In this document: one piece after another, positions 19,713 to 41,757 of the stretch
How positions within the stretch are numbered: the stretch's first letter is position 1
Layout: each line of letters begins with the position of its first letter
DNA from: Scytolyngbya sp. HA4215-MV1
GTDB taxonomy: Bacteria; Cyanobacteriota; Cyanobacteriia; Leptolyngbyales; Leptolyngbyaceae
DNA: 64,000 nt
Assembly: GCA_019359045.1 (NCBI GenBank)
Contig: JAHHIA010000005.1
Location: 372,001 to 436,000 of the forward strand
Direction of reading: 5' to 3'
The notes under the pieces: generated by a model
Databases searched by the model: none
What the model was told of the DNA's origin: nothing
The model's input: the letters and a program-made list of their open reading frames with translations, nothing else
Position numbers and translations under genes: made by a program

Positions 19713-19781
19713 AAGTAGAAGTTTATCGACTAAGGCATCGCGAAGAGATTCATTTAGCCTAGAAAAGTTTGATCAGGATTT

Positions 19782-20050: not shown

Positions 20051-20809
20051 ATGGTGCAAGCATCGGTTTTGCCAGAGACGAGCGCGATCGACCCCAACCT
20101 GATTTTGTTGGATGAAAAGCTACCCGGTGGGGCATACTGGCATAGCGTGATCAAGCGAGGCAATACCTTACGGATCACTGATTTAGAAGGCTCTCAGGGC
20201 GTTTCCTTGATTTGCTACAACGCCGATAGCCCGATCGAACGACTCAATGTTGCCGACACTGCCAAAATCCAATTCAATGCGTTTTTGCAAAAAGGCAAGG
20301 TCATGTATTCCGACATGGGACGTATCCTATTTTCTATTACCGAAGACACATCTGGATATCATGACTTGATCTGCGGCTGTAGCAATGCTGCCAGCAACGC
20401 TGCCAAATATGGCGTGGGACCTTATAACAAATATGGGGAAAGCGACTACAACAATTCGCGCAATAACTTTCTTAAAGCGCTGGGTAAACGGGGTTTAACT
20501 CGTAAAGACTTGATGCCCAACATTAACTTGTTCAGCCGCGTAGCTGTGCGGCCCAATGGCGATCTGTCCTACGTTGCGGGCTGCGAGAAGCCGGGTAGTT
20601 TTGTGGATCTGCGGGCTGAGATGAATGTGCTGGTGGTCGTTTCCAATTGCCCCCATGTGTTACATCCTGACACGGTTTACAAACCCAAGCCGATTCAATT
20701 GACAATTTGGCGATCGCCTGCTCCGGCTGCTGACGATCTCTGTCGCACTGCTAACGAAGAAGTGATACGCGGATTCATCAACACCGATGCGTTATTCGCT
20801 CAAGTGTAA
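20051..20809 (+). CDS. Urea carboxylase-associated protein 1 (carboxyguanidine deiminase subunit)
   Basis: A 252-residue DUF1989-family protein, the UAAP1 type that accompanies urea/guanidine carboxylases. Family literature identifies the UAAP1/UAAP2 pair as the two-subunit carboxyguanidine deiminase CgdAB, which converts carboxyguanidine to allophanate and ammonia. Visible features are PGGAYWHSVIKRG, RITDLEGSQGVSLICYNA and HDLICGCS with His104, Cys108 and Cys110, candidate metal or catalytic residues. A GAGGAGG lies just upstream of the ATG. First gene after the guanidine riboswitch; the next begins 35 bases later. I do not assign which of CgdA or CgdB this is. Confidence 0.9.
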   Translation: MVQASVLPETSAIDPNLILLDEKLPGGAYWHSVIKRGNTLRITDLEGSQGVSLICYNADSPIERLNVADTAKIQFNAFLQKGKVMYSDMGRILFSITEDTSGYHDLICGCSNAASNAAKYGVGPYNKYGESDYNNSRNNFLKALGKRGLTRKDLMPNINLFSRVAVRPNGDLSYVAGCEKPGSFVDLRAEMNVLVVVSNCPHVLHPDTVYKPKPIQLTIWRSPAPAADDLCRTANEEVIRGFINTDALFAQV

Positions 20810-20844
20810 TCGTCAGAACAATTCCCAAATTTAAGGATAAAACC

Positions 20845-21483
20845 ATGGTCACTCACTTATCGATCGAACGTGATCCCGCTATTGCAATCTATGACGAAGA
20901 ACTCGCTGCCCGTCAACCCTGGTCACGGGTGATCAAAAAGGGACAAGTCTTGCGGATTATTGATCTGCTGGCGAATCAAGCCGTGGATACTTTGATTTAC
21001 AACGCTCATGATTCCTCTGAACGCTACAGCGCCCCCGATACAGTAGTACGGCAGGGCAATATTTTCATCACTACGGGCACGCAACTCATTTCCAACGAAG
21101 GCAACGTGATGATGACCGTGGTTCATGACGATTGTGGCAAGCACGATACGCTGGGCGGTGCGTGCAGCATGGAAAGCAACTCGGTGCGCTATGGCTTACA
21201 CAAAAAACATCTCCATGCCTGTGTGGAAAATTACTTGCTGGAGTTGAGTCAGTATGAAATGAACAAGCGCGATTTGGTCAGCAATATCAACTTCTACATG
21301 AATGTGCCGGTCAGTGAAGACGGCACGTTGGAAATTGTGGATGGCATTTCCGAAGCCGGAAAAATGGTGGATTTGCGAGCAGAAATGGATGTGATGGTAT
21401 TGATTTCCAATTGTCCCCAAATCAATAACCCATGTAATGCGTATAATCCGACGCCGGTGCGGTTGATTGTCTGGAATGAGTAA
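20845..21483 (+). CDS. Urea carboxylase-associated protein 2 (carboxyguanidine deiminase subunit)
   Basis: A 212-residue DUF1989-family protein of the UAAP2 type, paralogous to the preceding gene (shared [17 protein letters not shown], the HDTLGGACS region and [19 protein letters not shown]). The upstream protein has HDLICGCS at the place where this one has HDTLGGACS, so one cysteine differs between the subunits, in keeping with a heteromer of unequal partners. It should act with UAAP1 on carboxyguanidine. The carboxylase gene starts four bases after its stop, or overlaps it if an earlier ATG is used, indicating translational coupling. Confidence 0.9.
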
Positions 21484-21487
21484 ACGT

Positions 21488-24400
21488 ATGTTCCGTAAAG
21501 TTCTCATTGCCAATCGGGGTGAAATTGCTTGCCGAGTGATTCGGACGCTCGATCGTCTGGGCATTGCTTCGGTTGCTGTTTATTCAGATGCAGATGCCCA
21601 TGCTCAGCATGTATCGATGGCGACGGAAGCGGTGTGGATTGGGGCGGCACCTGTAGCGGAGAGCTACTTGCGCTACGATCGCATCCTGGAAGTTGCACAA
21701 ACGACAGGAGCGCAGGCAATTCATCCCGGTTATGGCTTTTTGAGTGAGAACATTGAGTTTGCGATCGCGTGTGAAGCCGCTGGGATTGTCTTTATTGGTC
21801 CAACCCCGCAGCAAATTCGCGCGTTTGGCTTGAAACACACCGCGCGTGAATTGGCAGCACAAAACCAGGTGCCGCTGGTGCCTGGGAGCGGATTACTAGA
21901 GAGTCTGGAAGCAGCTCAGATTGCTGCCGCTACGATCGGCTATCCTGTAATGCTGAAAAGTACGGCGGGGGGTGGGGGCATTGGGATGCAGGTGTGTACC
22001 AGCGAGGTAGATCTGGTCGATGCCTTTGAGAAAGTACAACGGCTAAGTCAAACCAACTTCAAACAAGGGGGACTATTTTTAGAGAAATATATTCAAACGG
22101 CACGACACATTGAAGTCCAAATCTTTGGCGATGGTGAGGGACATGTGATTGCCCTGAGCGAACGAGATTGTTCTACACAACGACGCAATCAAAAAGTCAT
22201 TGAGGAGACCCCTGCACCGGGTATCAGCCCTGCCCTGCGACAGCAACTTTCAGAAGATGCGGTGCGATTAGCACAGGCAGTCAACTATCGATCGGCGGGA
22301 ACGGTTGAATTTGTCTTCGATGTTGCCACCCAGCAGATTTACTTTCTCGAAGTCAATACCCGCCTTCAGGTGGAGCATGGTGTGACAGAAAAAGTCTGTG
22401 GAATTGACTTGGTAGAGTGGATGGTGCGTCTGGCAGCTGGGGATTCTGCCTTTTTGCAGAATTATCAACATCAACCGCAAGGGCACTCTATTCAGGTGAG
22501 AATTTATGCTGAAGATGCTCACAAAAATTTTCAGCCCAGTGCGGGGCTGTTGAGTGAGGTGCGCTTTCCTGAAACCGTGCGCTGTGATGCCTGGATCGAA
22601 GCCGGAACCGAAGTCACCCCCTATTACGATCCGCTATTGGCAAAGGTGATTGTCTATGGAGAAAATCGGCAGGCTGCGATCGCCCAACTCCAGTCCGCTC
22701 TCCAGGCATCCGAAATTGCGGGCATTGAAACCAATTTGGACTATTTGCGCCAAGCGATCGCCCGTCCCAAATTCATCCAGGGAATCGTCAGCACTCGCGA
22801 TCTCAACGCTTTTGTTTACCAACCGCGCACGATCGATGTACTCGACGCAGGCACCTATACCACGATTCAGGACTATCCCGGACGAATAGGCTATTGGGAT
22901 GTGGGCGTGCCACCCTCCGGTCCCATGGATCACCTGGCGTTTCGGTTGGCAAACCGGATTTTGGGCAACCCCGAATCTGCGGCAGGACTCGAATGTACGG
23001 TGATGGGTCCTAGTTTACGCTTCAACTGCGATACGGTAATTTGTCTCACCGGGGCAGCCATGAAAGCCACGCTGAACGGGCAACCGATTCCCTATTGGAC
23101 TGCCATTCCCGTCAGCGCTGGCAGCACCCTCAAACTCAAAACGATTCAAGGACACGGCTATCGTACCTATATCGCCATCCAGCATGGTTTTGATGTGCCA
23201 GAGTACCTGGGCAGCAAAGCCACGTTTACGTTGGGACAGTTTGGCGGACATGCGGGACGAACCTTACGCGCAGGTGACGTGTTGCGGTTGGAGCTGGGCA
23301 GCGTCAAAGCAGCAGAGCAACCTTCTCCCCTTCCCCCCTCCCTCATGCCCCAATACACCAACGAATGGGAAATCGGTGTGCTCTACGGTCCTCATGGCGC
23401 GCCCGATTTCTTCACCGAAGCCGATATTGAGATGTTCTTCTCAACCCGTTGGACAATTCACCACAACTCAGCCCGAACAGGGATTCGGCTGGTGGGTCCC
23501 AAACCGCATTGGGCAAGGACAGATGGCGGGGAAGCTGGCTTGCATCCCTCTAATATTCACGACAATGCCTATGCGATTGGCACGATCGACTTCACAGGCG
23601 ACATGCCAATCATCCTGGCGCACGATGGACCCAGCTTAGGCGGATTTGTCTGTCCCGCCACGATCGTCCAGGCAGAACTCTGGAAAATTGGACAACTGAA
23701 ACCCGGGGACACTGTTCGCTTTCATTGTCTGACCGCAGAAGTTGCCCGCCAGCTTGAATTGGAGCAAGATCATCAGGTTGCAGCGCTGAGACATGAAGCA
23801 GTAGAAACCCCATCCCTTCATCCCTCCATCCCCCCATCTCCCCTCATCTCTTCTCCCATCCTGCATCAATTCACCACCACACCTAGTCAAATCGCCGTGA
23901 CCTATCGCCAGGCAGGAGATCGCTACCTATTGGTAGAATACGGTCCCCTAGTGTTGGATTTGAATCTGCGATTCTGTGTGCATGGGTTGATGACTTGGCT
24001 CCAAGCTAACCCTATAACGGGCATCATTGACCTGACACCGGGGATTCGATCGCTGCAAATTCATTACGACAATCGGGTATTGCCAGCGCAAGCGTTGCTC
24101 AACACACTCGTTGCAGCGGAAGCTGAACTACCGGACATTGAGGATCTGGAGATTCCAACTCGAATTGTTCATTTGCCACTTTCTTGGGATGATGCCTCGA
24201 CCCAATTGGCGATCGAGAAGTATATGCAATCGGTGCGATCGGATGCGCCCTGGTGTCCCAGTAATATTGAATTCATACGTCGGATTAATGGACTGGATAG
24301 TATTGAGCAGGTGCGTGACGTCGTATTCAATGCCAGTTATTTAGTCATGGGATTGGGGGATGTCTATTTGGGGGCACCCGTGGCGACGCCGCTTGATCCT

Positions 24401-25111
24401 CGGCATCGCTTAGTCACGACTAAATATAATCCCGCCCGTACCTGGACTCCTGAAAATGCGGTTGGAATTGGTGGGGCTTATCTGTGTATTTATGGCATGG
24501 AAGGACCGGGAGGCTATCAGTTTGTGGGACGGACGGTTCCCGTATGGAATCGCTATAAACAAACCGAGGATTTTACGCAACCCTGGTTGTTGCGCTTTTT
24601 TGACCAAATTCGCTTCTTTCCGGTAACCCCCGATGAATTGCTACGCTATCGGGAAGCGGTGATTCAGGGCAAGGTGAAGCTGGAGATTCGAGAAGAAACG
24701 TTTAGTTTGCGGCAATATCATGAGTTGTTGCAGACGAATGCAGACGAAATTGCTGTGTTCAAAGCCAAACAGCAAGCTGCGTTTGCCATAGAACGCGATC
24801 GCTGGGTTGCAGCAGGAGAGTTTGCCCGTCAAGAGGTTTTGGAAGAGATTGAAGTGCCGGAAGTGCCGGAAGTGACTTTACCGGAACAATCTGAAGCGAT
24901 CGTGGCTCATGTGTCTGCTAATGTCTGGCAAGTGTTGGTGCAACCGGGCGATCGGGTGGCAGAGGGCGATCGGCTGCTGATTCTGGAAGCGATGAAAATG
25001 GAAATTGCGGTGTTTGCAGAAGGCGCAGGTACGATGACAGCGGTGTTCTGTCAACCCGGGCAAACGGTGACGGCAGGGCAATGGTTGGCGGCAATTCAGA
25101 GAGAGAGATGA
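21488..25111 (+). CDS. Biotin-dependent urea/guanidine carboxylase
   Basis: A 1,207-residue enzyme that carboxylates urea or, in operons with UAAP1/2, guanidine. Domains in order: biotin carboxylase (1-about 450; [41 protein letters not shown]), an AHS2/KipA-like carboxyltransferase half (about 455-770; [20 protein letters not shown]), a Pro/Ser-rich linker (about 778-800), an AHS1/KipI-like half (about 805-1040), a helical region, and a C-terminal biotin carrier with LEAMKMEI, biotin on Lys1170. The ATG at 21488 gives the family N-terminus; ATG 21476 overlaps the previous stop. Substrate preference for guanidine is inferred from the riboswitch. Confidence 0.93.
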
Positions 25112-25242: not shown

Positions 25243-25986
25243 GTGAAACGAGTGTTGATTTTGGGGGGAACGGGGGATGCAGTGGCGTTAGCAGCGAGAA
25301 CTGCTGCAATTCCAGAGATTGAGGTGATTACTTCTCTGGCAGGGCGCACTCGTCAACCGCTGGTTTCATCTCAAAATACGCGCATTGGCGGATTTGGTGG
25401 GGTTGCTGGACTGGTGGAATACTTGCGGGACCAGCAGATCGATCGGGTGATTGATGCGACCCATCCCTTTGCCGCGAAAATTTCGTTCAATGCGGCGGCG
25501 GCCGCACTAGAGGTGGGAATTCCGCACCTGATGGTGATCCGTCCGGCGTGGCAACCTATCCCAGGCGATCGCTGGATCGAGGTCGAAAGTAACGCAGCGG
25601 CAGCTACTCGCTTGCCCAACCTTGCCCAGCGCATTTTCCTAACGATCGGGCGACAGGAATTGTCCACTTTTGCCTATCTTCGGGACCTCTGGTTTCTGAT
25701 GCGGATGATCGATCCGCCCCAACCTGATGTCCCTGTGCCACCTGGCAAACTCTTACTGGAACGGGGACCTTTTTCCCTCGACCAAGAGCGATCGTTGCTG
25801 CACCAGTACCAGATTGAGGCGATCGTCAGCAAAAACAGTGGCGGCGATGCCACCTACGCCAAAATCATCGCCGCTCGTGAGTTGGGATTGCCTGTGATCA
25901 TGGTGCAACGTCCCGCCATGCCCCCAGGCGAGCAAGTGAATACGCTAGAGGCTGCCCTGGCTTGGATTGAACAGATAGGGTCGTAG
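25243..25986 (+). CDS. cobK: Precorrin-6A/cobalt-precorrin-6A reductase
   Basis: NAD(P)H-dependent reductase of the corrin ring in cobalamin synthesis. The 247-residue protein shows VLILGGTGDAVALA (nucleotide-binding turn), VIDATHPFAAKIS, which is the family signature, LTIGRQELSTF and SKNSGGDATYAKI. It begins with GTG. The gene lies 131 bases behind the carboxylase and could be read through from that operon, or have its own promoter. With cbiD at 13.8 kb it is the second corrin gene flanking the guanidine locus; no others of the pathway are in the window. Confidence 0.92.
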   Translation: MKRVLILGGTGDAVALAARTAAIPEIEVITSLAGRTRQPLVSSQNTRIGGFGGVAGLVEYLRDQQIDRVIDATHPFAAKISFNAAAAALEVGIPHLMVIRPAWQPIPGDRWIEVESNAAAATRLPNLAQRIFLTIGRQELSTFAYLRDLWFLMRMIDPPQPDVPVPPGKLLLERGPFSLDQERSLLHQYQIEAIVSKNSGGDATYAKIIAARELGLPVIMVQRPAMPPGEQVNTLEAALAWIEQIGS

Positions 25987-26177: not shown

Positions 26178-27509
26178 ATGTCTGCCCAATGGACCTCTGA
26201 ACATGTGTTGGCGCTGGCACCGGATGCGGCATCTGCCAAGAATGGGCAAGGGCTTGCGATGCTTAATAAATGGTCATCGCTGGGACAACAAGCATCGGTC
26301 ATTTGGGGAGAATGCCAAGGCAGTGGCAAGACGCCCTACCGCACGCAAATTGATGTGAGCGAACCCGCTTTTCGCTGTAGTTGCCCCAGTCGCAAATTCC
26401 CCTGCAAACATAGTCTGGCGTTGTTTTTGTTGCGAGCAGAACACCCCAATGTGTTTGAGGCAAAAGCACCGCCGGATTGGGTGACAGAATGGTTGACCAC
26501 ACGATCGCAACGGGCAGAAAAGCAAGCTGAAAAACAGGCAAAGCCATCGTCCCAGACGACCGATCCATCGGCGCAGGCGAAGCGAACGGCTGCACGGCAG
26601 CAAAAAGTCAATGCCGGCGTTCAGGAGTTGCGCCTCTGGTTGGAAGACCGCATTCGACAAGGGCTGGCAACTGTGCCACAAGAGTCTTACCAGACTTGGG
26701 ATAGAGTGGCTTCCCGCATGATTGATGCCCAAGCCCCCGGATTGGCCCGGCAAGTTCGTATGCTGGCGGGCATTGCCCATAGTGGCGGTGGGTGGAGCGA
26801 TCGCCTGTTAGAACAATTGGGACGAATCTACTTGATCACCGAAGGATTTCAGCGCCTTGAGCGCCTACCTATTCCTGTCCAGTCTGATCTGCGAACCCAA
26901 ATTGGCTGGAGTCTGAGTCAGGAAGAGGTGCTCAGCACTCAACCGGCTCAAGCCGATTGTTGGCTGGTGGTGGGGCAACGCACCGACACGGACGATCGCC
27001 TCAAAACTCGCCGCACTTGGCTGTTGGGGTTAAGCAGTGCCACCTTTGCCTTGCTGCTAGATTTTGCCCATGGACAGCAACCCTTTGAGCAAAATTTTTT
27101 ACTGGGAACTTGTCAGGAAGCTGAGTTCGTTTTTTATCCCAGCGCTTACCCCCTTCGCGCCCTGCTCAAAACTCGCCAGGAAGCCGTCTTGCTATCTCAA
27201 CCACCGTCAGGTGCCGACATTTCTACAGCGATCGCGCGCTACAATCGAGCGTTTGCTGTCTGTCCCTGGCTGGAACAGTTTCCCCTGCTGTTGCAAGCCG
27301 TACTGCCCATACGAGAAGGCGATCGCTGGTTGATTCAAGATGTTCAGGGTGTTGGGTTACCCCTTTCTCCCCGCATCGACCCCAAACAAGGTTGGCAATT
27401 ACTCGCCTTGAGTGGGGGCAAATCGTTGACGCTGTTTGGAGAATGGAACGGTACGGATCTACTGCCCTTGACTGTTTGGCTGGAGGATCGGTTTTATGAG
27501 CTTAAATAA
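26178..27509 (+). CDS. SWIM zinc-finger protein
   Basis: A 443-residue protein with one SWIM zinc finger, CSCPSRKFPCKHSLAL, where Cys67, Cys69, Cys76 and His78 fit CxCxnCxH. SWIM fingers bind DNA or proteins. A charged Gln/Lys/Ala-rich stretch (about 105-140) links it to a C-terminal region rich in Trp and Leu with no recognised fold. I start at the ATG at 26178 (MSAQWTSEHVLALAPD), preceded by GGAG; the frame reaches an ATG at 26106. It is the first gene of a six-gene cassette, and its end overlaps the next gene by 14 bases. Specific function unknown. Confidence 0.88.
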   Translation: MSAQWTSEHVLALAPDAASAKNGQGLAMLNKWSSLGQQASVIWGECQGSGKTPYRTQIDVSEPAFRCSCPSRKFPCKHSLALFLLRAEHPNVFEAKAPPDWVTEWLTTRSQRAEKQAEKQAKPSSQTTDPSAQAKRTAARQQKVNAGVQELRLWLEDRIRQGLATVPQESYQTWDRVASRMIDAQAPGLARQVRMLAGIAHSGGGWSDRLLEQLGRIYLITEGFQRLERLPIPVQSDLRTQIGWSLSQEEVLSTQPAQADCWLVVGQRTDTDDRLKTRRTWLLGLSSATFALLLDFAHGQQPFEQNFLLGTCQEAEFVFYPSAYPLRALLKTRQEAVLLSQPPSGADISTAIARYNRAFAVCPWLEQFPLLLQAVLPIREGDRWLIQDVQGVGLPLSPRIDPKQGWQLLALSGGKSLTLFGEWNGTDLLPLTVWLEDRFYELK

Positions 27510-29079
27510 ACTGGCAGAGGGGGATGCCTGGCAAAAAGTGGTTTCTGCTGCCCTGTTGGGCACCGATCGGCAACCCTTTACCCTGCCAACTGCACCGGGG
27601 CAACTGGGACAATTCCTTCCCCAACTGGCACACTTATCCAGCGAAGCCACGTTATTGACTGCCGCTGCGGCTCTGGCGTTACATAAGCATGCAGGTTGGC
27701 TGCCCCCCCAATTGCCTGTCCCTGCTCCCATACCCCATGAAACGGGGGAACCGTATGATGACCTGCCTCGCTGTAGCCCTCGCGCAGCACGACTATTGCA
27801 ACAAATGCTTCAAGGACAACATGCTGTCGTGTTGCCAGAGTGGTTGATCCTGGCAGCGCAAAGGGGGCAACGAGTCCCCGAACTGGAGTTGCCTGAACTG
27901 CTGGATCTGGGCAAGCAGCGACGAGACTTACGTGCCAAAATTTTGTGGGTTCTGGGGCAACGGGGCAGGTGGTTGGCGGCGCAGAATCCTGAATGGAAGT
28001 ATGCGGTTACGGTAGCGACCGAAGAAGATTGGGAAACCGGGCATCAGGCTGCCCGAGAGTTGTATTTTCAGGACTTGCGGGCGAACAATCCCGATCGCGC
28101 CAGAGAATTGCTGCAAACCACCTGGAAGCAGGAAGTTGCCAGCGATCGCGCCAAGTTTCTGGAAACTTTTTCGATTGGGTTGAGTATGGCGGATGAGCCT
28201 TTTTTAACGGCAGGGTTGAACGATCGCGGTAAAGAGGTGCGTCGCGTTGCCGCTGATCTGCTGGCAAGGTTGCCTGATGCCCCCCTTAGCCAACACATTG
28301 CAACCCACACCACGCGCTATTTGACCCTTGTACCTCAACCTACACCCACGCTCCAGGTGGAGTTGCCTGATACCCTCAATGCCTCCCTGATTCAGGCGGG
28401 GATTGAGCCGAAACTTGCCCAGCCGATCTCAGAAAAATTGGGAGAAAAAGCCGGCTGGCTGTTTCAACTGATTGGGGCAACGCCTTTGACCGTTTGGGAG
28501 GATTGGGGCATGACTCCGGTCGAAATTGTTGCACTGGTCAGAAACCATGAATGGGAAGGGGTGTTGCTGGGAGGATGGGCGCTGGCGGCACAGCGGCAGC
28601 AAAGGAGTGAGTGGAGCGAAGCCTTGTTAAATCGATGGTTAACGGAAAACTCTGGGGAAATGCTACCGGGTGTCAGCTTAGAAAATTTATTCGAGATCCT
28701 ACCCAACGATACTCAAGATCAGTTTCTCACCCAAATGTTGAGCGCCGATCGCAATCCTCTCTCCGATTCCCGCACACTCTGGTTTTTACGACAGAGTCGT
28801 CAGGAATGGAGCGCTGTTTTGGCGCATTGGGTTTTGTTGAGACTGGAAGCCCAGATCGCTCAAACTGCCCAGTCTCCAACCAACTATTCCTGGGAACTTT
28901 GGACTGCACTCAAAGATTTTGCCCGTTTCATGCCTGTCTCATTACTACCGGAAGCGATAAAATTGCAAACCCTACTTCCCGCCCATTCTCCCTGGAGCCA
29001 AAGTTTGGAGGCATTTTTAACCCTCTTACAATTTCGACAGGACATTGTGCAAGCCTTTGAGATCGCCGGTGGTAGCTAA
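27496..29079 (+). CDS. DUF5691 helical-repeat protein
   Basis: A 527-residue protein of the DUF5691 family, known from cassettes with SWIM, MoxR and VWA proteins but without an assigned function. It begins AWQKVVSAALLGTDRQPF. The middle part looks like HEAT-type helical repeats (for example around RAKFLETFSIGLSMADEPFL and the following DRGKEVRRVAADLLARLPD), suggesting a scaffold. Its start lies inside the SWIM gene (14-base overlap), so the two proteins are translationally coupled and probably work together. No membrane segment or catalytic motif is visible. Confidence 0.82.
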   Translation: MSLNKLAEGDAWQKVVSAALLGTDRQPFTLPTAPGQLGQFLPQLAHLSSEATLLTAAAALALHKHAGWLPPQLPVPAPIPHETGEPYDDLPRCSPRAARLLQQMLQGQHAVVLPEWLILAAQRGQRVPELELPELLDLGKQRRDLRAKILWVLGQRGRWLAAQNPEWKYAVTVATEEDWETGHQAARELYFQDLRANNPDRARELLQTTWKQEVASDRAKFLETFSIGLSMADEPFLTAGLNDRGKEVRRVAADLLARLPDAPLSQHIATHTTRYLTLVPQPTPTLQVELPDTLNASLIQAGIEPKLAQPISEKLGEKAGWLFQLIGATPLTVWEDWGMTPVEIVALVRNHEWEGVLLGGWALAAQRQQRSEWSEALLNRWLTENSGEMLPGVSLENLFEILPNDTQDQFLTQMLSADRNPLSDSRTLWFLRQSRQEWSAVLAHWVLLRLEAQIAQTAQSPTNYSWELWTALKDFARFMPVSLLPEAIKLQTLLPAHSPWSQSLEAFLTLLQFRQDIVQAFEIAGGS

Positions 29080-29088
29080 CCATGCCTC

Positions 29089-29160
29089 GGCGTTGCTGAT
29101 TCTGGATATGAATTGGGAGTTGTATGAATTGAAACGTCGTTCCAATTCATATTGCTGTAG
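29089..29160. repeat. Dispersed hairpin repeat, copy B
   Basis: Starts GGCGTTGCTGATTCTGG and repeats copy A (4544) with about half a dozen changes over the first 65 bases. The inner hairpin is ATGAATTG / CAATTCAT around AAACGTCGTTC. It sits 9 bases after the DUF5691 stop, in the 192-base gap before the MoxR gene, and so lies within the transcript of the cassette, where it could act as an RNA hairpin. The rest of this gap is AT-rich and unremarkable. Confidence 0.75.
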
Positions 29161-29271
29161 CACTATCCAGATTTCTTATCCAACTTCAAGTCAAACTCTC
29201 GCTCATATCAGTACTCTCCACGGTCTGACAACTCATCCAATCACAATTTTGTACTCATTTAAATTATAGAA

Positions 29272-30417
29272 ATGGCAACCACAAAATCGAAATCCACTCA
29301 CTCTCATTCTCAATCCACACCTGAATCTGCCTCCCCTGCCTCTGCCCTACTGCGAGACCATGCAGAGCAACAGTTTGCCCATGAATTGCAGGAACTGGCA
29401 AAAGCTGATCAACGGCAACGTCCCCCCAATTGGCAACTCTCTCCTTGGGCGGTGTCGATTTATTTGATGGGAGGCACGCTGGATAATGGCTTTGAGGTTT
29501 CACCTAAGTACATTGGTAATCGACGCCTCATGGAAGTGGCGATCGCTACTCTGGCAACCGATCGCGCCTTGCTCTTGTATGGCGTTCCCGGTACTGCCAA
29601 ATCCTGGGTGTCGGAGCATTTAGCCGCCGCAATTTCTGGCGATTCGACACGACTGATTCAGGGCACAGCAGGCACCAGTGAAGAAGCGATTCGCTATGGT
29701 TGGAACTATGCCCGCTTGCTAGCCGAAGGTCCCTCGATGGAGGCGCTGGTCGCCAGCCCGATGATGCGCGCCATGGCAAATGGCAAAATTGCTCGAGTTG
29801 AAGAACTGACACGCATTCCCTCGGATGTGCAGGATACGTTGATTACAGTATTGTCAGAAAAAGTGCTGCCCATTCCGGAACTAAATACCGAAGTACAAGC
29901 AACCAAGGGTTTCAACGTCATTGCCACGGCAAATAATCGCGATCGCGGCGTCAATGAGCTTTCCAGTGCGTTGAAACGTCGCTTTAACACAGTGATTCTG
30001 CCAGTACCGGACTCGATCGAATCGGAAGTAGCGATCGTCCACCAGCGGGTCACCAGCCTGGGACGGGCGTTAGAATTGCCTGCCGAAGTGCCTGCATTGG
30101 AGGAAATCAATCGTGTTGTCACGATCTTTCGGGAATTGCGCAATGGCGTGACGATCGATGGCAAAACGAAACTCAAGTCGCCCACCAGCACCCTCAGCCC
30201 TGCCGAAGCGATTTCTGTGGTTAGCAGTGGCATGGCACTTTCGGCTCACTTTGGCGATGGGGCACTGAAAGCCAATGATTTAATGTCCGCCTTAGTGGGC
30301 GCAGTCATTAAAGACCCCATTCAAGATCAGGTGGTCTGGAAAGAATATCTGGAGACCGTGGTCAAAGAACGAGATGGTTGGAAAGATCTGTACCGAGCAA
30401 GTCGAGAAATGCTCTAG
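29272..30417 (+). CDS. MoxR-family AAA+ ATPase
   Basis: A 381-residue AAA+ ATPase. It has Walker A GVPGTAKS (104-111), a Walker B-like KIARVEEL (172-179) in which the usual first Asp is Glu, sensor 1 TANNRD (219-224) and an arginine-finger region LKRRFNTV (235-241), then a helical lid. MoxR ATPases form rings that remodel or metallate partners together with VWA proteins (as in RavA-ViaA or CbbQ-CbbO). The VWA partner here is at 33512. The N-terminal 25 residues are Ser/Thr-rich and disordered. The remodelled target is unknown; DUF5682 and DUF5691 are candidates. Confidence 0.9.
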   Translation: MATTKSKSTHSHSQSTPESASPASALLRDHAEQQFAHELQELAKADQRQRPPNWQLSPWAVSIYLMGGTLDNGFEVSPKYIGNRRLMEVAIATLATDRALLLYGVPGTAKSWVSEHLAAAISGDSTRLIQGTAGTSEEAIRYGWNYARLLAEGPSMEALVASPMMRAMANGKIARVEELTRIPSDVQDTLITVLSEKVLPIPELNTEVQATKGFNVIATANNRDRGVNELSSALKRRFNTVILPVPDSIESEVAIVHQRVTSLGRALELPAEVPALEEINRVVTIFRELRNGVTIDGKTKLKSPTSTLSPAEAISVVSSGMALSAHFGDGALKANDLMSALVGAVIKDPIQDQVVWKEYLETVVKERDGWKDLYRASREML

Positions 30418-30521
30418 GGGGTTGGCGAGATGTTTTGAGAAGTCGAAAATCCGCCAAAATCATCCTGCCCAAACTCCTTGATTCGTTCATCGAAAATGAC
30501 AGATTTCCCAGAGTAGACATT

Positions 30522-32861
30522 ATGTCAGTTCATGTGTTTGGCATCCGTCATCACGGACCCGGTTCAGCGCGCAGCCTGGGTCAGGCATTAACAACACTCC
30601 AACCCGATATTTTGCTGGTGGAAGGTCCCGCCGATGCAGAACCCATCCTGCCGCTCATCCTGCATCGTCAGATGCGCCCTCCTGTCGCTTTGTTGGTCTA
30701 CGTCCCAGACCAGTCTCAACAAGCTGCCTACTATCCTTTTGCCGTCTTTTCACCTGAATGGCAGGCGATTCGTTTTGCCCTCCAGCAACAAATTCCAGTG
30801 CGATTAATGGACTTGCCCCAAGCGCATCGGTTTGCTATGGAAAGCCAGGAAAAGCAACAAGAGCAGGGTGATAAAGGCAAGGAGAATGGGACAGAGCAAA
30901 GTGCTCATGCTACTACTCCTTCTGCCCCAGATCCTCCACCTTCCCCACCCTCGGTCAACGTTCGCTTTGACCCACTCGATTTGCTGGCGCAAGCAGCGGG
31001 TTATCGCGATGGAGAACGCTGGTGGGAACATTTGGTAGAACAACGCCAGGACAGTACGGAATTGTTTGCAGCAATTTTGGCAGCAATGACAGTGCTCCGG
31101 TCTGAAATCGAGCCGGGATTGGTCAATCCAGATCCCTTGGAAGCGCAGCGAGAAGCTTTTATGCGAAAAACGATTCGCACGGTTGAAAAGCAGGGCTTTC
31201 AAAAAATTGCGGTGGTCTGTGGGGCATGGCACGCGCCTGCACTGGTGCAAAGACCCCCTGCTAAAGACGATGAGGCTTTGCTAAAAGGATTGCCAAAACT
31301 TAAGGTCGAAACGACCTGGGTTCCCTGGACGTACGGACGCTTGTCGATGAGTAGTGGCTATGGGGCGGGCGTGGAGTCGCCGGGTTGGTATCAGCATCTG
31401 TGGCAGCACGGGGCACGGAGCCAAAAACAGCGCCGACAAAAGGATTTTAGCCCAACGCTGGAGAGTTCCATCCGGTGGATGACCCAGGTGGCACGGTTGC
31501 TGCGAAAACAAGATCTGGATGCCTCTCCTGCCAGTGTGATTGAGGCAGTCCGGTTGGCGGAGACATTGGCAGCCCTGCGCGATCGCCCCCTCCCTGGCTT
31601 GTTGGAACTGAACGAGGCGACTCAAACGGTCTTGTGCTTCGGTGATCCACTGCCGATGCAACTCATTCATCAACAGTTGGTAGTAGGTGAACGGTTGGGG
31701 CGAGTGCCAGCAGAAACGCCCATGGTGCCCCTTCAGCAAGATCTCCAGCGACAACAAAAGCGATCGCGGCTGAAACCAGATGCCACCGAAACCCCTTTGG
31801 AGTTGGATCTACGCAAACCGCTCGATCTGGAGCGATCTCACCTACTGCATCGGCTTGCCCTCCTAAATCTACCCTGGGGTAAGCCTCAATCGGTTGGCAA
31901 TGCGAAAGGAACCTTTCGGGAGTCTTGGCGCTTGCAGTGGCAACCGGAATTTGCCATCCAGTTAATCGAAGCAGGCGTTTGGGGCAACACGATTGAAGTG
32001 GCTGCGGCTGCTTGGACCTGCGATCGGGCAAACCGAGCGAATTTGCCTGAACTGACCCGACTGATTGATCACACCCTATTGGCAAACCTGCCCCTAGCCA
32101 CTACTCATTTGATTAACCGGTTGCAAGCTGAAGCTGCGATCGCCAGTGATCTGACTCATCTCATGACAGCATTGCCACCCTTGGTCAATACGATGCGCTA
32201 TGGCACTGTGCGTCAGTTGGAAACAGCGGTGATGGGACATGTGGTAGATGGGTTAATCGCCCGAATTTGCATTGGCTTGCCTGTCGCCTGTGCGTCGCTG
32301 GATGATGATGCCGCAACTCAGCTGTATCCTTTGTTGGTGGCAGTACATGGGGCGATCGGGTTAATTCAGCAAGCCGACATCCTGGAGATGTGGCAACAAG
32401 TGCTTGCCAAACTGGCAGACCAGCAGGGCTTACATGGATTAATCGCTGGACGCTGTGGTCGGTTGCTGTTTGAAGCAGGTGTCTTTCAATCAGACGATAT
32501 GGCGCGGCGGTTGGGGGTCGCGCTTTCGACTGTCAGTGAACCGACTCAAGCGGCGGCTTGGTTGGAGGGCTTTCTCTCTGGCAGCGGGCTGTTGCTGTTG
32601 CACAATCCGGCACTCTGGCAAGTGCTAGACGATTGGGTGATGCAACTTGCCCCAGAGACTTTTACGGCAATCGTGCCCCTATTGCGGCGCACGTTTTCGA
32701 CCTTTCCTGCACCAGAGCGGCGTCAGATGGGAGAGCGGGTAAGGCTGCAAGGGCAAACGGCAAGCGGCAAACAGTCGTGGCAGGCTGGCGGCGAATTTGA
32801 TCGCGATCGAGCAGATGCCATTCTGCCCTTGCTGGCTCAATTACTGGGAGTTTCCACCTAA
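30522..32861 (+). CDS. DUF5682 protein with TIKI/ChaN-like GxxH motifs
   Basis: A 779-residue protein of the DUF5682 family. The N-terminal domain (1-about 240) begins VFGIRHHGPGSARSLGQAL and contains LLVEGPADAE, AFMRKTI and VVCGAWHAPAL. These supply two GxxH motifs (Gly7-His10 and Gly234-His237), Glu34 and Arg215, the pattern of the TIKI/TraB/EreA/ChaN hydrolase superfamily, so it may be a metal-dependent hydrolase (inference). An acidic, Gln/Pro-rich insert spans about 107-145. The rest is helical and leucine-rich. The ATG at 30522 is used; the frame runs back into the MoxR gene without support. Function unknown. Confidence 0.82.
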   Translation: MSVHVFGIRHHGPGSARSLGQALTTLQPDILLVEGPADAEPILPLILHRQMRPPVALLVYVPDQSQQAAYYPFAVFSPEWQAIRFALQQQIPVRLMDLPQAHRFAMESQEKQQEQGDKGKENGTEQSAHATTPSAPDPPPSPPSVNVRFDPLDLLAQAAGYRDGERWWEHLVEQRQDSTELFAAILAAMTVLRSEIEPGLVNPDPLEAQREAFMRKTIRTVEKQGFQKIAVVCGAWHAPALVQRPPAKDDEALLKGLPKLKVETTWVPWTYGRLSMSSGYGAGVESPGWYQHLWQHGARSQKQRRQKDFSPTLESSIRWMTQVARLLRKQDLDASPASVIEAVRLAETLAALRDRPLPGLLELNEATQTVLCFGDPLPMQLIHQQLVVGERLGRVPAETPMVPLQQDLQRQQKRSRLKPDATETPLELDLRKPLDLERSHLLHRLALLNLPWGKPQSVGNAKGTFRESWRLQWQPEFAIQLIEAGVWGNTIEVAAAAWTCDRANRANLPELTRLIDHTLLANLPLATTHLINRLQAEAAIASDLTHLMTALPPLVNTMRYGTVRQLETAVMGHVVDGLIARICIGLPVACASLDDDAATQLYPLLVAVHGAIGLIQQADILEMWQQVLAKLADQQGLHGLIAGRCGRLLFEAGVFQSDDMARRLGVALSTVSEPTQAAAWLEGFLSGSGLLLLHNPALWQVLDDWVMQLAPETFTAIVPLLRRTFSTFPAPERRQMGERVRLQGQTASGKQSWQAGGEFDRDRADAILPLLAQLLGVST

Positions 32862-32891
32862 TGGCACAGGCAGCGTTTGGAGCAGAAAGTC

Positions 32892-33482
32892 ATGGCAGAT
32901 TTTGAATGGGAAAGTCTTTTGAGGCAATTCAGCCAAAAGCTGATTGCAGAGTTGAACGATCGCAACCGTGAACAGATTCCGCCCGCCACGATCGCGGCTG
33001 GCTGGCTGGGGTATCCCGGTGCCTCCGAAGCCCAAATCGTCCAGGCAGAAACCCGGTTGGGCACCCAATTTCCTCCCTCCTACCGAGAATTCTTACAGGT
33101 GTCCAATGGTTGGATAAATGCCGATTGGACGACGCTCCAACTGTGGTCAACCGAAGAAGTTACCTGGTTCCGTAACAGTAAACCCGACTGGATTTGGCCT
33201 CCCTACACCAATGCAAGACCCTCAGTCCCCGATGAAAAATATTTTATTTATGGAGAAAGCCAAGACCCGGTGCACCTGCGTGCTGAGTATTTAGACACTG
33301 CATTGGAGATTAGCAGCGATAGTGGCGATGGTGATATCTACTTACTGATCCCTGCTGTTATCGATCGCCGAGGAGAATGGGAAGCCTGGCATTTTGGCAG
33401 TAAGCTACCGGGTGCGTACCGCTATCGCTCTTTCTATGAATTAATGCAAAAAGCCCTTGAATGGGGCAAATTTGTGAATTGA
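32892..33482 (+). CDS. SUKH-1 (SMI1/KNR4) family protein
   Basis: A 196-residue protein with a SMI1/KNR4 domain: YPGASEAQIVQAETRLGTQFP then PSYREFLQVSNGW, and a late GDIYLLIPAV. SUKH proteins often serve as immunity proteins against polymorphic toxins, but also as general adaptor modules. GGAG lies before the ATG at 32892, which I prefer to the TTG at 32877. It is inserted between DUF5682 and the VWA gene, 30 bases after the former and 29 before the latter. No toxin is recognisable nearby, so an adaptor role inside the cassette is at least as likely. Confidence 0.82.
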   Translation: MADFEWESLLRQFSQKLIAELNDRNREQIPPATIAAGWLGYPGASEAQIVQAETRLGTQFPPSYREFLQVSNGWINADWTTLQLWSTEEVTWFRNSKPDWIWPPYTNARPSVPDEKYFIYGESQDPVHLRAEYLDTALEISSDSGDGDIYLLIPAVIDRRGEWEAWHFGSKLPGAYRYRSFYELMQKALEWGKFVN

Positions 33483-33511
33483 AATTGGCAAATAATTCCC
33501 CGTGTTTACTT

Positions 33512-34729
33512 ATGACTCATCCAGTTACCCCAAACGCTCAACTTCCAACTTCTACAGAACGATTGCGCCGCTGGCGACTGATCTTGGGTGGCGGTGCGGC
33601 GGACGGAATTTGTGTTCAAGGGCAGGAAACTGGGCAGGGAACCGAAATGACAGCGGGGTTGAATCTCAATACGACGGATCAGGCGATCGATCAAGCGCTG
33701 ACAGCTCTTTACGATCGCGAACGATCGGCAGGGTTGGGAGCCTCTTCGCCCAAGGTCGCGCGATGGTTAGGGGACATCCGCACCTATTTCCCAACTTCTG
33801 TCGTCAAGGTGATGCAGCAAGATGCGTTAGAGCGATTAAATTTGCGGCAAATGTTGCTAGAACCAGAAATGCTCGAAGCGGTGGAACCTGATGTTCATTT
33901 GGTGTCAAACCTCTTGTCCCTGAGTCAGGTGATGCCTGGTAAAACCAAAGAAACTGCGCGAATTGTGGTACGGCGCGTGGTCGAGGATCTCCTCCGTAAA
34001 CTCGAAAACCCAACGCGGCAAGCGATTCTCGGTAGCCTAAACCGGGCAACTCGCAATCGTCGTCCTCGCCATCACGAAATTGATTGGCATCGCACGATTC
34101 GGGCAAACTTAAAACACTACCAACCCGACTACCACTCCATCATTCCAGAAACACGCATTGGATATGGACGAAAACGTTCTGCTCTACGAGAAATCATTCT
34201 ATGTGTCGATCAGAGTGGTTCAATGGCAGCTTCAGTCGTCTATGCTGGCATCTTCAGTGCCGTTCTAGCATCATTGCCTGCCATAAAAACTCAGTTGGTC
34301 GTATTTGATACGGCAGTGGTCGATTTGACTGAGATGCTACAAGATCCGGTAGACGTGTTATTCGGCACCCAATTAGGCGGTGGAACCGATATCAACCAAG
34401 CACTTGCCTATTGTCAGGCATTGGTTCGTCATCCGCAAGAGACGATTCTCGTGCTCATTAGTGATTTATACGAGGGTGGGAATCAAACCGAAATGCGAAA
34501 GCGGATTCACTCACTGGTGGCGTCGGGTATTCAATTCATCACGCTGCTGGCGTTGAATGATCAAGGTGCCCCCTGCTATGACCACGACAATACTCATTTT
34601 CTGGCATCTTTAGGAGTTCCTGCTTTTGCTTGTACGCCGGATCTTTTTCCTGACTTGATGGCAGCCGCGATTAATCGTCAAGATCTCAAGCAATGGGCAG
34701 CGACTCAGGAAATTGCGATCGCGCGTTAA
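33512..34729 (+). CDS. VWA-domain protein, partner of the MoxR ATPase
   Basis: A 405-residue protein. The C-terminal half is a von Willebrand A domain with a complete MIDAS: DQSGS (233-237), the Thr of LGGGTDIN and the Asp of LVLISDLYEGG, so it should bind a divalent metal. The N-terminal half is helical with a basic patch (RATRNRRPRHHEIDWHRTIR) like other chelatase-type VWA proteins. Start at the ATG at 33512; the frame begins inside the SUKH gene at a less likely codon. It closes the cassette. The MoxR-VWA pairing is the best-supported functional link here; the physiological process is unknown. Confidence 0.9.
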   Translation: MTHPVTPNAQLPTSTERLRRWRLILGGGAADGICVQGQETGQGTEMTAGLNLNTTDQAIDQALTALYDRERSAGLGASSPKVARWLGDIRTYFPTSVVKVMQQDALERLNLRQMLLEPEMLEAVEPDVHLVSNLLSLSQVMPGKTKETARIVVRRVVEDLLRKLENPTRQAILGSLNRATRNRRPRHHEIDWHRTIRANLKHYQPDYHSIIPETRIGYGRKRSALREIILCVDQSGSMAASVVYAGIFSAVLASLPAIKTQLVVFDTAVVDLTEMLQDPVDVLFGTQLGGGTDINQALAYCQALVRHPQETILVLISDLYEGGNQTEMRKRIHSLVASGIQFITLLALNDQGAPCYDHDNTHFLASLGVPAFACTPDLFPDLMAAAINRQDLKQWAATQEIAIAR

Positions 34730-37983: not shown

Positions 37984-40900
37984 TCATGCTTGGGCATCTT
38001 TTCTGTCTGTCCAGTGTTGAATGGCGTTTGCCAGTTGCTTGAGCCTGACGGGTTTCGTTAAATAATCATTGGCTCCTGCTTCCAGACATTTTTCTCGATC
38101 GCCCGTCATGGCTAATGCGGTCAGAGCAATGATGGGAATCTCAGTCAAGGCTGGATCGAGACGAATCTGACGGGTGGCTTCTAGACCATCCATTCCCGGC
38201 ATCTGGATATCCATCAAAATCAAGTCCGGTTGGTGTGCTTTGGCAAGGTCGATCGCTGCCTGCCCATCGGATGCGAGGAGAATACGATAACCTTTGGCTT
38301 CGAGGTAGTCAGAAACTGTACTGATATTGGCTACGTTATCTTCGACTAACAAAATCCGGGGAGCATCGCTGGCAACTTCGTCAATCGGGGAGAAGTCCGG
38401 TTCTAGTGGGAGGGCTAACGGATTTGGGGTTGTCCCTTCTGGGGTAAGAAGAACACCGGGAGTACAGGGAAGATCGATCGTGAAGCAACTGCCCACCCCT
38501 AAGTCGCTGGTGACTCCCACCCTGCCACCATGGAGTTCAACAATCCGCTTGACAAGCGACAGTCCTAAGCCAGTGCCCGTATATTGACGATTGAGGGCGC
38601 TATCGATTTGGACAAAGGGTTGAAACAATTTTTTGATATTTTCGGGAGTAATGCCGATGCCAGTGTCAGTGACCGAAAACCGAACCCAGCAGACAGAATC
38701 TGCTCTATCTTGTGGTGTCGGACGTTGAACTTGCAGGGTAATCTGTCCCCCTTCGGGTGTGAATTTGACCGCGTTATTGAGTAGGTTAATGAGCACCTGG
38801 CGGGTGCGCCGTTCATCAACCACGAGGTTAGGGAGATGGGTTGGTAGCTTGACCTGAACCTGGATGTTTTTTTGGAGCGCTTGCTGTTTGATAAATGCCA
38901 GACTAGATTGACAAAGATGATGGATAGAGGTTGAAGTGTAGGTCAGTTCAATCTGTCCGGCTTCAATTTTTGCTACGTCCAAAATATCGTTGATCAGTTC
39001 CAGGAGATGGGTGCCACTGGACTCAATGGTTTGTAGCGCTTTTAGCTGTCGCTCATTTATATTTCCAAAGACTTGTTCTTGTAAGCCTTCTGTCATGCCT
39101 AAGATGGCGTTGAGGGGTGTGCGCAGCTCGTGGCTCATATTTGCTAGAAACTCATCTTTCAGTCGAGTGGCACGGGCGAGTTCTTCATTGGTTTGTTGCA
39201 GTTGCGCTTCTGATTGTTTGCGATCGGTGATATCTCGAACGAAAAAGACCACTTCGTCATTGCCGCAAGGGGCAACGCGTACTTCTTCGTAGCACACTTT
39301 GCCCTCAATCCAAATTTGCTGTTCATAACTCTGTACTGTTTGAGTCTCCAGCACTTGCTGAAGGGCAAAATATTGACTTTCAGCATGCACGGTCGAAATA
39401 TTTGGCAGTAGTGCTTCGTGAAAACGTTTGCCAATCACCTGCTGGGGGTCTACCAAATTGCTAACCAAAGGTGAGGTTAAGAAATCGACATATCGACCGT
39501 CGCGATTGACCCGAAAAACCAGATCGGGCATTGCCAAAAGTGTGGCACGAGCACGTTCTTCGCTGCGTTGGAGGGCTTCTTGGATGGCTTTGCGTTCACG
39601 CAGTGCAGCTTGCTGTTCGCTAATATCCATGGCAATACCAAACAAGCGAGTGACCTGTCCGGCTGCATTTTGAGTAATTTCTGCTTTGGCGAAAATATAA
39701 CCTGACGAGCCATCCGCTCGGATAATCTGTAGGTCCGTTGTGTAAGGTTCCCCAGTCTGAATGGCTCGCTCGATGAGTTGGTTAAAGCGAACCCGCTCAT
39801 CGGGTGGAAAGTATTGCAGTAGTTCTTCATAAGAGGGTTCTGGGTTGGTGGGGGCGAGTCCAAAGATTCTAAAAATCTCAGCCGACCAGGTAATTTTTCG
39901 AGTTTGTACGTCCAATTCCCAACTGCCGAGATGGGCGACCTGTTGTGCTTCGCGTAAACTGGCTTCACTTTGCTGTAAGGCAGCAGTGCGTTGTGCTACC
40001 CGGTCTTCTAATTCTCGGTTCAATTGTTCCAGCGCTTGAGTGGCGTATTCTCGCTCGATCGCAATTTTGGTAACGTTGACTACTAAAGCGATGACTTCTA
40101 GCTCTCGTGCTTGCGGGCTGTGGATGGTTCGGTGATAAACGGCAAAGGTTGCCAAAACGGAACCATCGCTTGCAATAACGGGGACGGACCAGCATGATCG
40201 CAAGTCATAGGACAACGCCAAGTCTTTATAGTTCTGCCAGAGTGGATCGGTGGCAATATCGGAAACAATCACTGGCGCTCGACGAAACGCAGCCGTTCCA
40301 CAAGAACCCACTCCCTCGCCAATGGAGAGATCTTCAAGCGCTTGATTGTAGGCTGCGGGCAAATGGGGAGCCGCACCATAGTGCAATTTACCTTCGCGAT
40401 CGCAAAGCAAAATAGAGCAGAGTGCCCCTTCCAGTTGCTCCTCTGATGTCCGTGCTAGCTGATCGAGAATCTCTAACAGGGGTTCCGCTTTCGCTATTCG
40501 CTCTAGAATTGAATTTTGAAAGGCTAACCGCAACTCAGCTTGTTTGCGATCGTTGATATCAAGATGGGTTCCCGTCATCCGTAAGGGATTGCCTGCCGCA
40601 TCCCATTCCACCACCTTGCCTCGTGCCAGCACCCAAACCCACATGCCCGATCGATGATGCATCCGCAGTTCGCATTCGTAGACCTGGGTTGCTCTGCAAA
40701 AGTGTTGCTCCAGCGCCAGAGTTGCTTTCTGTAAATCTTCGGGATGGATGTAATGTCGCCAGGTTTCGATACTAATCGGTTCCAGGGCTGGCAGGGTATA
40801 GCCAATGATCTCTGCCCAGCGATCGTTTAAGGTCAAGGCTCCTGTTGGAATCGACCAATCCCATAGCCCAATTCCCGAACCTTCTAGCGCAAGTTGCAGC

Positions 40901-41328
40901 CGCTCTTTGGTTTGATCCAGGATGATCTGAGAATGGTGGCGTTCTATCCGAATCTTGGCTTCCCGAATCTCTCGCCGCACTGCTTCTGGCAATCGAGTCA
41001 GGTTCTCCTTCATCAGGTAATCATGAGCACCCGCTTTCATCAGTTCCACGGCAGAGGTTTCGCCGACAGTGCCTGACACTACGATAAAAGGAAGATTCGG
41101 CTGGATCTGCTGCACGATTTTGAGTGCGGTTGGGGCATTGAATCCGGGTAAGTTGTAGTCGGAGATCAGCACATCCCACATTCGACTGTGCAGCGCGGTT
41201 TGGAGTGTTGCTGCTGTTTCCACCCGTTCCCAGACGATGTTAAATCCGTTGCGCCGCAATTCTCGAAGGATCAAGAGTGTGTCATCCTCCGAATCTTCCA
41301 CGATCAGCACATTGAGCAGATCACTCAT
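37984..41328 (-). CDS. Hybrid histidine kinase with two receivers (REC-PAS-GAF-PAS-PAS-HisKA-HATPase-REC)
   Basis: A 1,114-residue cytoplasmic hybrid kinase. Domains in order: an N-terminal receiver (about 6-125; LISDYNLPGF), PAS_3 (about 150-270), GAF (about 285-440), two more PAS domains (about 465-590 and 600-715), HisKA with NMSHELRTPLNAILGM, HATPase with DTGIGI and TGLGLSLV, and a C-terminal receiver with LILMDIQMPGMDG. The core kinase and receiver closely resemble those of the first gene in the operon (46761-51590). It begins three bases after the stop of the stand-alone regulator. The signal is unknown. Confidence 0.9.
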   Translation of the reverse strand: MSDLLNVLIVEDSEDDTLLILRELRRNGFNIVWERVETAATLQTALHSRMWDVLISDYNLPGFNAPTALKIVQQIQPNLPFIVVSGTVGETSAVELMKAGAHDYLMKENLTRLPEAVRREIREAKIRIERHHSQIILDQTKERLQLALEGSGIGLWDWSIPTGALTLNDRWAEIIGYTLPALEPISIETWRHYIHPEDLQKATLALEQHFCRATQVYECELRMHHRSGMWVWVLARGKVVEWDAAGNPLRMTGTHLDINDRKQAELRLAFQNSILERIAKAEPLLEILDQLARTSEEQLEGALCSILLCDREGKLHYGAAPHLPAAYNQALEDLSIGEGVGSCGTAAFRRAPVIVSDIATDPLWQNYKDLALSYDLRSCWSVPVIASDGSVLATFAVYHRTIHSPQARELEVIALVVNVTKIAIEREYATQALEQLNRELEDRVAQRTAALQQSEASLREAQQVAHLGSWELDVQTRKITWSAEIFRIFGLAPTNPEPSYEELLQYFPPDERVRFNQLIERAIQTGEPYTTDLQIIRADGSSGYIFAKAEITQNAAGQVTRLFGIAMDISEQQAALRERKAIQEALQRSEERARATLLAMPDLVFRVNRDGRYVDFLTSPLVSNLVDPQQVIGKRFHEALLPNISTVHAESQYFALQQVLETQTVQSYEQQIWIEGKVCYEEVRVAPCGNDEVVFFVRDITDRKQSEAQLQQTNEELARATRLKDEFLANMSHELRTPLNAILGMTEGLQEQVFGNINERQLKALQTIESSGTHLLELINDILDVAKIEAGQIELTYTSTSIHHLCQSSLAFIKQQALQKNIQVQVKLPTHLPNLVVDERRTRQVLINLLNNAVKFTPEGGQITLQVQRPTPQDRADSVCWVRFSVTDTGIGITPENIKKLFQPFVQIDSALNRQYTGTGLGLSLVKRIVELHGGRVGVTSDLGVGSCFTIDLPCTPGVLLTPEGTTPNPLALPLEPDFSPIDEVASDAPRILLVEDNVANISTVSDYLEAKGYRILLASDGQAAIDLAKAHQPDLILMDIQMPGMDGLEATRQIRLDPALTEIPIIALTALAMTGDREKCLEAGANDYLTKPVRLKQLANAIQHWTDRKDAQA

Positions 41329-41331
41329 GGG

Positions 41332-41754: not shown

Positions 41755-41757
41755 GGC

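Follow-up and report, generated by a model that had tools for sequence, protein, structure and literature searches.

A MoxR-VWA gene set with DUF5682, DUF5691 and SWIM proteins in Scytolyngbya sp. HA4215-MV1, conserved across bacteria and a variant of the yehLMPQ operon of E. coli

Results

Five genes of a six-gene cassette belong together

In a stretch of 64,000 nucleotides from the cyanobacterium Scytolyngbya sp. HA4215-MV1 (contig JAHHIA010000005.1, positions 372,001 to 436,000; the whole stretch is hereafter called the window), we studied a cassette of six genes encoding, in this order, a SWIM zinc-finger protein, a DUF5691 protein, a MoxR AAA+ ATPase, a DUF5682 protein, a SUKH protein and a VWA protein. 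We show that all of these genes except the one for SUKH are inherited and retained as one set in many bacterial phyla and that, on comparison with E. coli, the module is classed as a variant of the yehLMPQ operon. As to its function, we read the set as a conserved chaperone-plus-enzyme module of the yehLMPQ kind, in which the MoxR-VWA pair would remodel DUF5682 and the SWIM and DUF5691 proteins would act as adaptor, a reading to which we assign a probability of about 50%. The six families and their common strand had been named by the original prediction, which a model had made from the letters and their open frames, and the Pfam matches (E-values below) agree with it:

26178–27509, plus strand: SWIM zinc-finger protein, 443 amino acids (aa), open frame from 26106; SWIM PF04434, 8e-6
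27496–29079, plus strand: DUF5691 protein, 527 aa; PF18944, 4e-127
29272–30417, plus strand: YehL-type MoxR AAA+ ATPase, 381 aa; AAA_5 PF07728, 3e-37
30522–32861, plus strand: DUF5682 protein (YehM family), 779 aa; PF18934, 2e-288
32892–33482, plus strand: SUKH-1 (SMI1/KNR4) protein, 196 aa; SMI1_KNR4/SUKH-1 PF09346, 4e-10
33512–34729, plus strand: CoxE-type VWA protein (YehP family), 405 aa, open frame from 33461; VWA_CoxE PF05762, 1e-51

The set is kept across phyla and after scattering

Relatives of DUF5682 were collected by a scan of genome contigs, which confirmed at least 583 stretches encoding such a protein. The best 80 loci were kept; these are the ones nearest to the window DUF5682 protein, so that the sample is biased towards the window architecture, and their partner genes were read with profiles built from the window's own proteins. 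They came from Cyanobacteriota, Chloroflexota, Pseudomonadota, Bacteroidota, Planctomycetota, Actinomycetota, Acidobacteriota and Verrucomicrobiota, and included one Armatimonadota-type and one Deinococcus-group metagenome-assembled genome. The exact order SWIM-DUF5691-MoxR-DUF5682-VWA was found in 48 of these 80 loci, all four partners of DUF5682 were close by in 57 of the 64 loci with flanks long enough to hold the entire cassette, and neighbouring cassette genes had a median spacing of -4 to 10 nt. Three loci (L046, L069 and L105) had SWIM and DUF5691 fused in a single open reading frame (ORF), which suggests that the two proteins physically associate.

The presence of the genes in whole genomes was likewise coupled. 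DUF5682 occurred in 16 of 58 relatives and DUF5691 in 11, all of them inside the 16 (Fisher p = 2e-8), and among 291 phylum-wide genomes DUF5682 passed the cut-off in 11 and DUF5691 in 10, all 10 being shared (p = 1e-17); both p-values are optimistic because related genomes are not independent. The five genes are dispersed over the chromosome in three near-complete genomes (G055, G110 and G334), yet all five are retained: in G055, DUF5682 is found at 4.297 Mb, DUF5691 at 2.573 Mb, VWA at 1.640 Mb, MoxR at 0.460 Mb and the SWIM homologue at 0.390 Mb. As the full set is kept after scattering, hitch-hiking on a single DNA segment does not account for the link. We regard the five-gene module as ancient.

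The 192-nt gap between the DUF5691 and MoxR genes and some loci in which DUF5682 stands without cassette neighbours (L037, L068 and L104) would suit a cassette of unrelated genes that became neighbours by chance. With an order kept across phyla and a set retained after scattering, we give this explanation almost no credence; it is refuted for all cassette genes but SUKH, for which it holds. A SUKH gene within the cassette was seen in the window alone, that is, in 1 of about 97 loci, where it is inserted between the DUF5682 and VWA genes, and 59% homologues of it are encoded in two genomes without the cassette (G017 and G027). Its absence from every other cassette and its homologues in cassette-free genomes make it a passenger, outside the conserved system. 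The original prediction had treated the six genes as one unit and had named as its refutation that they would not be conserved together in other genomes; the neighbourhood analysis that it proposed was run and found them conserved together, SUKH excepted.

In a DUF5682 tree, in which the long branches are unsure, phyla mostly stayed together (18 changes versus 50 when shuffled), so that heavy horizontal mobility of the module is unsupported. In one locus of a relative (L021 of G016, 5829–8114), DUF5682 is interrupted by a stop codon with the neighbouring genes open, which may be a pseudogene, a sequencing error or a real break. A link to cobalamin through cbiJ, which lies directly upstream of the cassette in the window (25243–25986), was considered and dropped, as the cbiJ cluster recurred beside no other cassette locus.

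The module as a variant of yehLMPQ

In E. coli K-12, yehL (MoxR), yehM (DUF5682), yehP (VWA) and yehQ (SWIM) are consecutive (b2119–b2122). The window likewise has its MoxR, DUF5682 and VWA genes in a row on one strand, the latter two split by SUKH, and YehL, YehM and YehP are colinear over their full length with the window counterparts. The window MoxR matches YehL end to end (40% identity over 363 aa, E = 7e-77) and the window VWA protein matches YehP end to end (36% identity over 381 aa), whereas their matches to the other E. coli pair, RavA (E = 0.24 over 114 aa) and ViaA (E = 0.08), are not significant. In this pairwise comparison with the two ATPases, the window MoxR thus sorts with YehL, a named MoxR subfamily (PMC3893208, PMC11432383), and not with RavA; RavA-ViaA is also a MoxR-VWA pair, of another subfamily.

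The two systems differ in their remaining parts. Both have a SWIM protein, encoded last in E. coli and first in the window, and YehQ has two SWIM fingers and clearly resembles the window SWIM protein at the finger alone; DUF5691 is part of the window module and is missing from the E. coli operon. With its order SWIM-DUF5691-MoxR-DUF5682-SUKH-VWA, the window does not have the strict yehLMPQ arrangement (SWIM directly downstream of VWA, no DUF5691), and its module is therefore a variant. The true yehLMPQ arrangement was found in three cyanobacterial relatives (L028–L030), so that both versions occur in one bacterial family. In E. coli itself, 5162 of 5426 complete genomes contained 80% or more of the yehLMPQ query, nearly always on the chromosome.

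A further gene recurred at these loci. DUF4132, the HEAT-repeat family of YehI, adjoins the cassette after VWA in six Bacteroidota loci and lies upstream in two cyanobacterial yehLMPQ-type loci; in E. coli it is yehI, which flanks yehLMPQ. The loci with a DUF4132 neighbour, over both arrangements, are L054, L060, L062, L074, L080, L090, L029, L030 and L002. DUF4132 was looked for in the window genome and none was found, and we flag it as a recurrent, optional extra partner of the module. The E. coli yeh region also contains yehF, of the WGR family, and a pseudogene, yehH.

Our literature search found no paper on DUF5682 or DUF5691 and no function for the YehL class. Its matches to yeh genes were incidental: yehM among the genes mutated in copper-evolved E. 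coli, with no mechanism given (PMC12409786), and yehQ among the genes cloned and deleted in a study of butanol tolerance (PMC6442406), the others including several in which these letters stood for something unrelated. The original statement that no process is assigned to this combination of genes thus agrees with this search; what it had missed is the link to yehLMPQ and to a named YehL subfamily.

An intact MoxR-VWA pair

The catalytic and binding motifs of the pair are preserved. In MoxR, Walker A (GVPGTAKS), Walker B, sensor 1 and the RR motifs are conserved over 85 aligned rows; Walker B reads EE instead of DE in every YehL-type protein of the alignment, Asp being conservatively replaced by Glu. 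The metal-ion-dependent adhesion site (MIDAS) of the VWA protein, DQSGS...GGGTD...SD, is complete and conserved (DxSxS, T, D). MoxR and VWA, in which Walker A, sensor 1, the arginine motif and the MIDAS are all intact, form a typical pair, which bears out the pairing of an AAA+ ATPase with a VWA partner in the original prediction. In the SWIM protein, the finger reads C-S-C-P-S-R-K-F-P-C-K-H, and its CxC...CxH residues are invariant among the type-A homologues that possess a finger. DUF5691 gave a HEAT_2 match below threshold (E = 0.02) and is probably a HEAT-like helical repeat.

Such pairs are known as activators. NorQ-NorD, CbbQ-CbbO and CoxD-CoxE also combine an AAA+ ATPase with a MIDAS-bearing VWA partner, in line with the VWA_CoxE match in the window; they belong to other MoxR subfamilies, and none of their clients (NO reductase, RuBisCO and CO dehydrogenase, respectively) is encoded in the window module. 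In NorQ-NorD, the VWA protein inserts a finger into the AAA+ pore and, with its MIDAS, holds the client as ATP turnover twists it (PMC9976466, PMC13036017). The window pair has kept the motifs that such a mechanism requires.

DUF5682 is a predicted hydrolase-superfamily protein

DUF5682 is predicted to comprise a ChaN/Ere/TraB-fold domain (residues 1 to about 305), a small helical bundle (about 309–390) and a helical solenoid (about 445–777); the AlphaFold2 models had mean confidence scores (pLDDT) of 87.4 and 91.4, so that the N-terminal domain, of alpha/beta type, and the solenoid are high-confidence predictions. A sequence search of solved structures with DUF5682 found none. Since a fold search with the whole protein was swamped by the solenoid, the N-terminal domain was folded and searched alone; the ChaN/Ere/TraB fold had been expected from the motifs before this search. 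The top eight VIA-align matches of the isolated domain were led by three chains of Tetrahymena complex IV (Z 9.7–10.0), followed by ChaN (2g5g) at Z 8.6 and by four chains of Ere type including EreC (Z 6.5–6.7); unrelated rows stood at Z 6.0 and below. Tetrahymena complex IV contains a TraB-family subunit (PMC10060162), which we infer to be the matched chain.

The motifs point the same way. RHH (H10/H11), E34, R210-E211-x-x-M214 and G234-x-x-H237 are invariant in 48 type-A sequences and also in a set of 14 to which E. coli YehM and three cyanobacterial proteins of the yehLMPQ type belong, at 24–26% identity. The motifs G-x-x-H, E, (R/D)(D/E)xxM and G-x-x-H occur in the same order and spacing in cyanobacterial ChaN/Ere sequences, and in EreC, a metal-independent enzyme, H50, E78 and H289 place the catalytic water (PMC7979712). 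The fold and the four ordered motifs are what DUF5682 would share with ChaN, Ere and TraB/TIKI proteins; it differs from them by its large helical solenoid and its tie to a MoxR-VWA pair. Of these, ChaN is a haem binder, and the Ere enzymes act as esterases. With the haem-binding ChaN and the metal-independent EreC among the nearest solved proteins, a metal would, by analogy, not be required by the fold; the metallation of a client that the original prediction had raised is only a possibility. Prediction gives good support to the ChaN/erythromycin-esterase/TraB fold of the N-terminal domain. DUF5682 resembles the members of a hydrolase superfamily, and the earlier suggestion of a likely hydrolase that is the probable client of the ATPase is plausible.

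The helical bundle at about 309–390 (31446–31691 in the window) resembles the lids of AAA+ proteins such as MCM, dynein and Cdc6 (Z 5–6). As a comparison with the MoxR lid gave 5.6% and so did not confirm this by sequence, we treat the region as a common bundle.

Mechanism and alternatives

How the parts could work together can be pictured after NorQ-NorD (PMC9976466, PMC13036017). A MoxR hexamer would hold the VWA protein through a finger in its pore, ATP turnover would move the VWA domain, and the MIDAS of the latter would grip the client. This client would be DUF5682, which might then be opened, loaded or activated, while SWIM and DUF5691 would form a second subcomplex that recruits the substrate or target of the enzyme.

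Several observations weigh against this reading of a MoxR-VWA pair acting on DUF5682. The mechanism, which we infer, holds most of the uncertainty, and the client of the pair could be another protein. The bias of the 80 loci and the DUF5682 genes that stand alone, both described above, also count here. In the scattered-gene genomes (L122–L125), the SWIM homologue keeps its C-terminal region alone, with matches beginning at query residue 163, and a search of every frame nearby found no zinc-finger motif, so that the finger may be dispensable. As for DUF5682, the structural Z-scores of its N-terminal domain are modest and come from a predicted model, and Foldseek gave no significant match with this domain. 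Profile comparison of DUF5682 with ChaN and Ere by hhalign gave 2.6% and 0.2% and is uninformative, since the known pair ChaN-Ere, its positive control, also scored just 10%.

It is possible, if rather doubtful, that the client is instead an unlinked complex encoded elsewhere, which DUF5682, DUF5691 and SWIM would choose and process as adaptors. This would fit the large helical scaffold in DUF5682 and the inconstant recurrence of DUF4132 beside the cassette, as expected of an optional client or adaptor, and RavA-ViaA has been tied to unlinked clients (PMC3893208, PMC10585395). However, many MoxR-VWA systems encode their client alongside, DUF5682 is the sole co-encoded component that resembles an enzyme, and no unlinked partner was identified.

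Alternatively, the module might be an ATP-dependent protease-like machine, in which MoxR-VWA unfolds substrates chosen by SWIM-DUF5691, or delivers them, to the TraB/TIKI-like domain of DUF5682 for cleavage. The fold superfamily includes TIKI/TraB peptidases, and the Tiki/TraB family has been called peptidases (PMC8939145). Every part of such a machine would be present in one operon. Considering what ChaN and Ere do, however, a peptidase activity of DUF5682 is only putative, and MoxR proteins are remodellers with a VWA finger in the pore rather than threading unfoldases (PMC13036017), which makes this machine improbable. A broader proposal, which we rate as rather unlikely, is a new kind of ATP-powered enzyme machine, core in E. 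coli, present in many phyla and so far overlooked, with a MoxR-VWA motor to control or feed a hydrolase of the ChaN/Ere/TIKI fold, which might be a protease, while an adaptor of SWIM zinc finger and helical repeat picks the targets.

The original prediction had also proposed phage challenge of a cassette deletion, and an anti-phage or inter-bacterial conflict system would resemble the ternary MoxR-vWA systems (Kaur et al. 2020, PMC7159879), in which MoxR, vWA and a third protein share one operon. The patchy presence among relatives (16 of 58), the shared MoxR-VWA core idea (bpMoxR at 24.9 bits, under the 27-bit cut-off) and a SUKH protein, of a family often tied to immunity, inside this one cassette would suit such a role. 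The third protein here is DUF5682, though, and the window has no VMAP, iSTAND or FtsH component and no effector domain on its VWA protein; PMC7159879 mentions no SWIM, DUF5682 or Yeh proteins. None of the six proteins had a credible match in PADLOC (the best was to IetA, E = 0.002 over 30 residues), a search of viral contigs found no relative, and relatives were found in just 36 of 72,556 plasmid records. Moreover, yehLMPQ is core in E. coli, and the core genes and their order are constant across phyla, effector turnover being a criterion for conflict systems (PMC7159879). A role in phage defence is thus unlikely, and these results disfavour the phage phenotype.

The yehLMPQ operon (uncharacterised) and YehL as a named MoxR subfamily were already known; what this analysis adds is a fold assignment for DUF5682, the exclusion of SUKH from the module, the finding that the set is retained when scattered, and the link to DUF4132. 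As the module is core in E. coli, an ordinary laboratory strain would serve to test its role. From the fold and motifs of DUF5682 comes a concrete catalytic hypothesis, the first one, which names residues for mutation, and co-retention after scattering defines five proteins to study jointly, from which SUKH can be omitted.

Layout of the cassette and other features of the window

The likely gene starts (26178, 27496, 29272, 30522, 32892 and 33512) were chosen by the lengths and alignments of homologues. With these starts, the SWIM and DUF5691 genes overlap by exactly 14 bases (27496–27509), as had been predicted, and the remaining gaps are, in cassette order, 192, 104, 30 and 29 nt; the gaps had all been called short, which does not apply to the first. 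Promoter-like and terminator-like sites across the cassette region were no commoner than in shuffled sequence, so that transcription as a single operon is neither supported nor opposed by these predictions. The 192-nt gap contains an inverted repeat without a T run (ATGAATTG...CAATTCAT, 29124–29150), a possible operator or hairpin.

Elsewhere in the window, a Guanidine-I riboswitch (19775–19932) precedes two DUF1989 genes and the gene for a biotin-dependent urea-carboxylase-like protein of 1214 aa (20051–25111), with an amidase on the opposite strand, a locus that we read as one for guanidine/urea degradation. At 37984–51590, very large multi-PAS/GAF histidine kinases are encoded in tandem, in ORFs of 1114, 1702 and 1609 aa, the first two of which were domain-checked.

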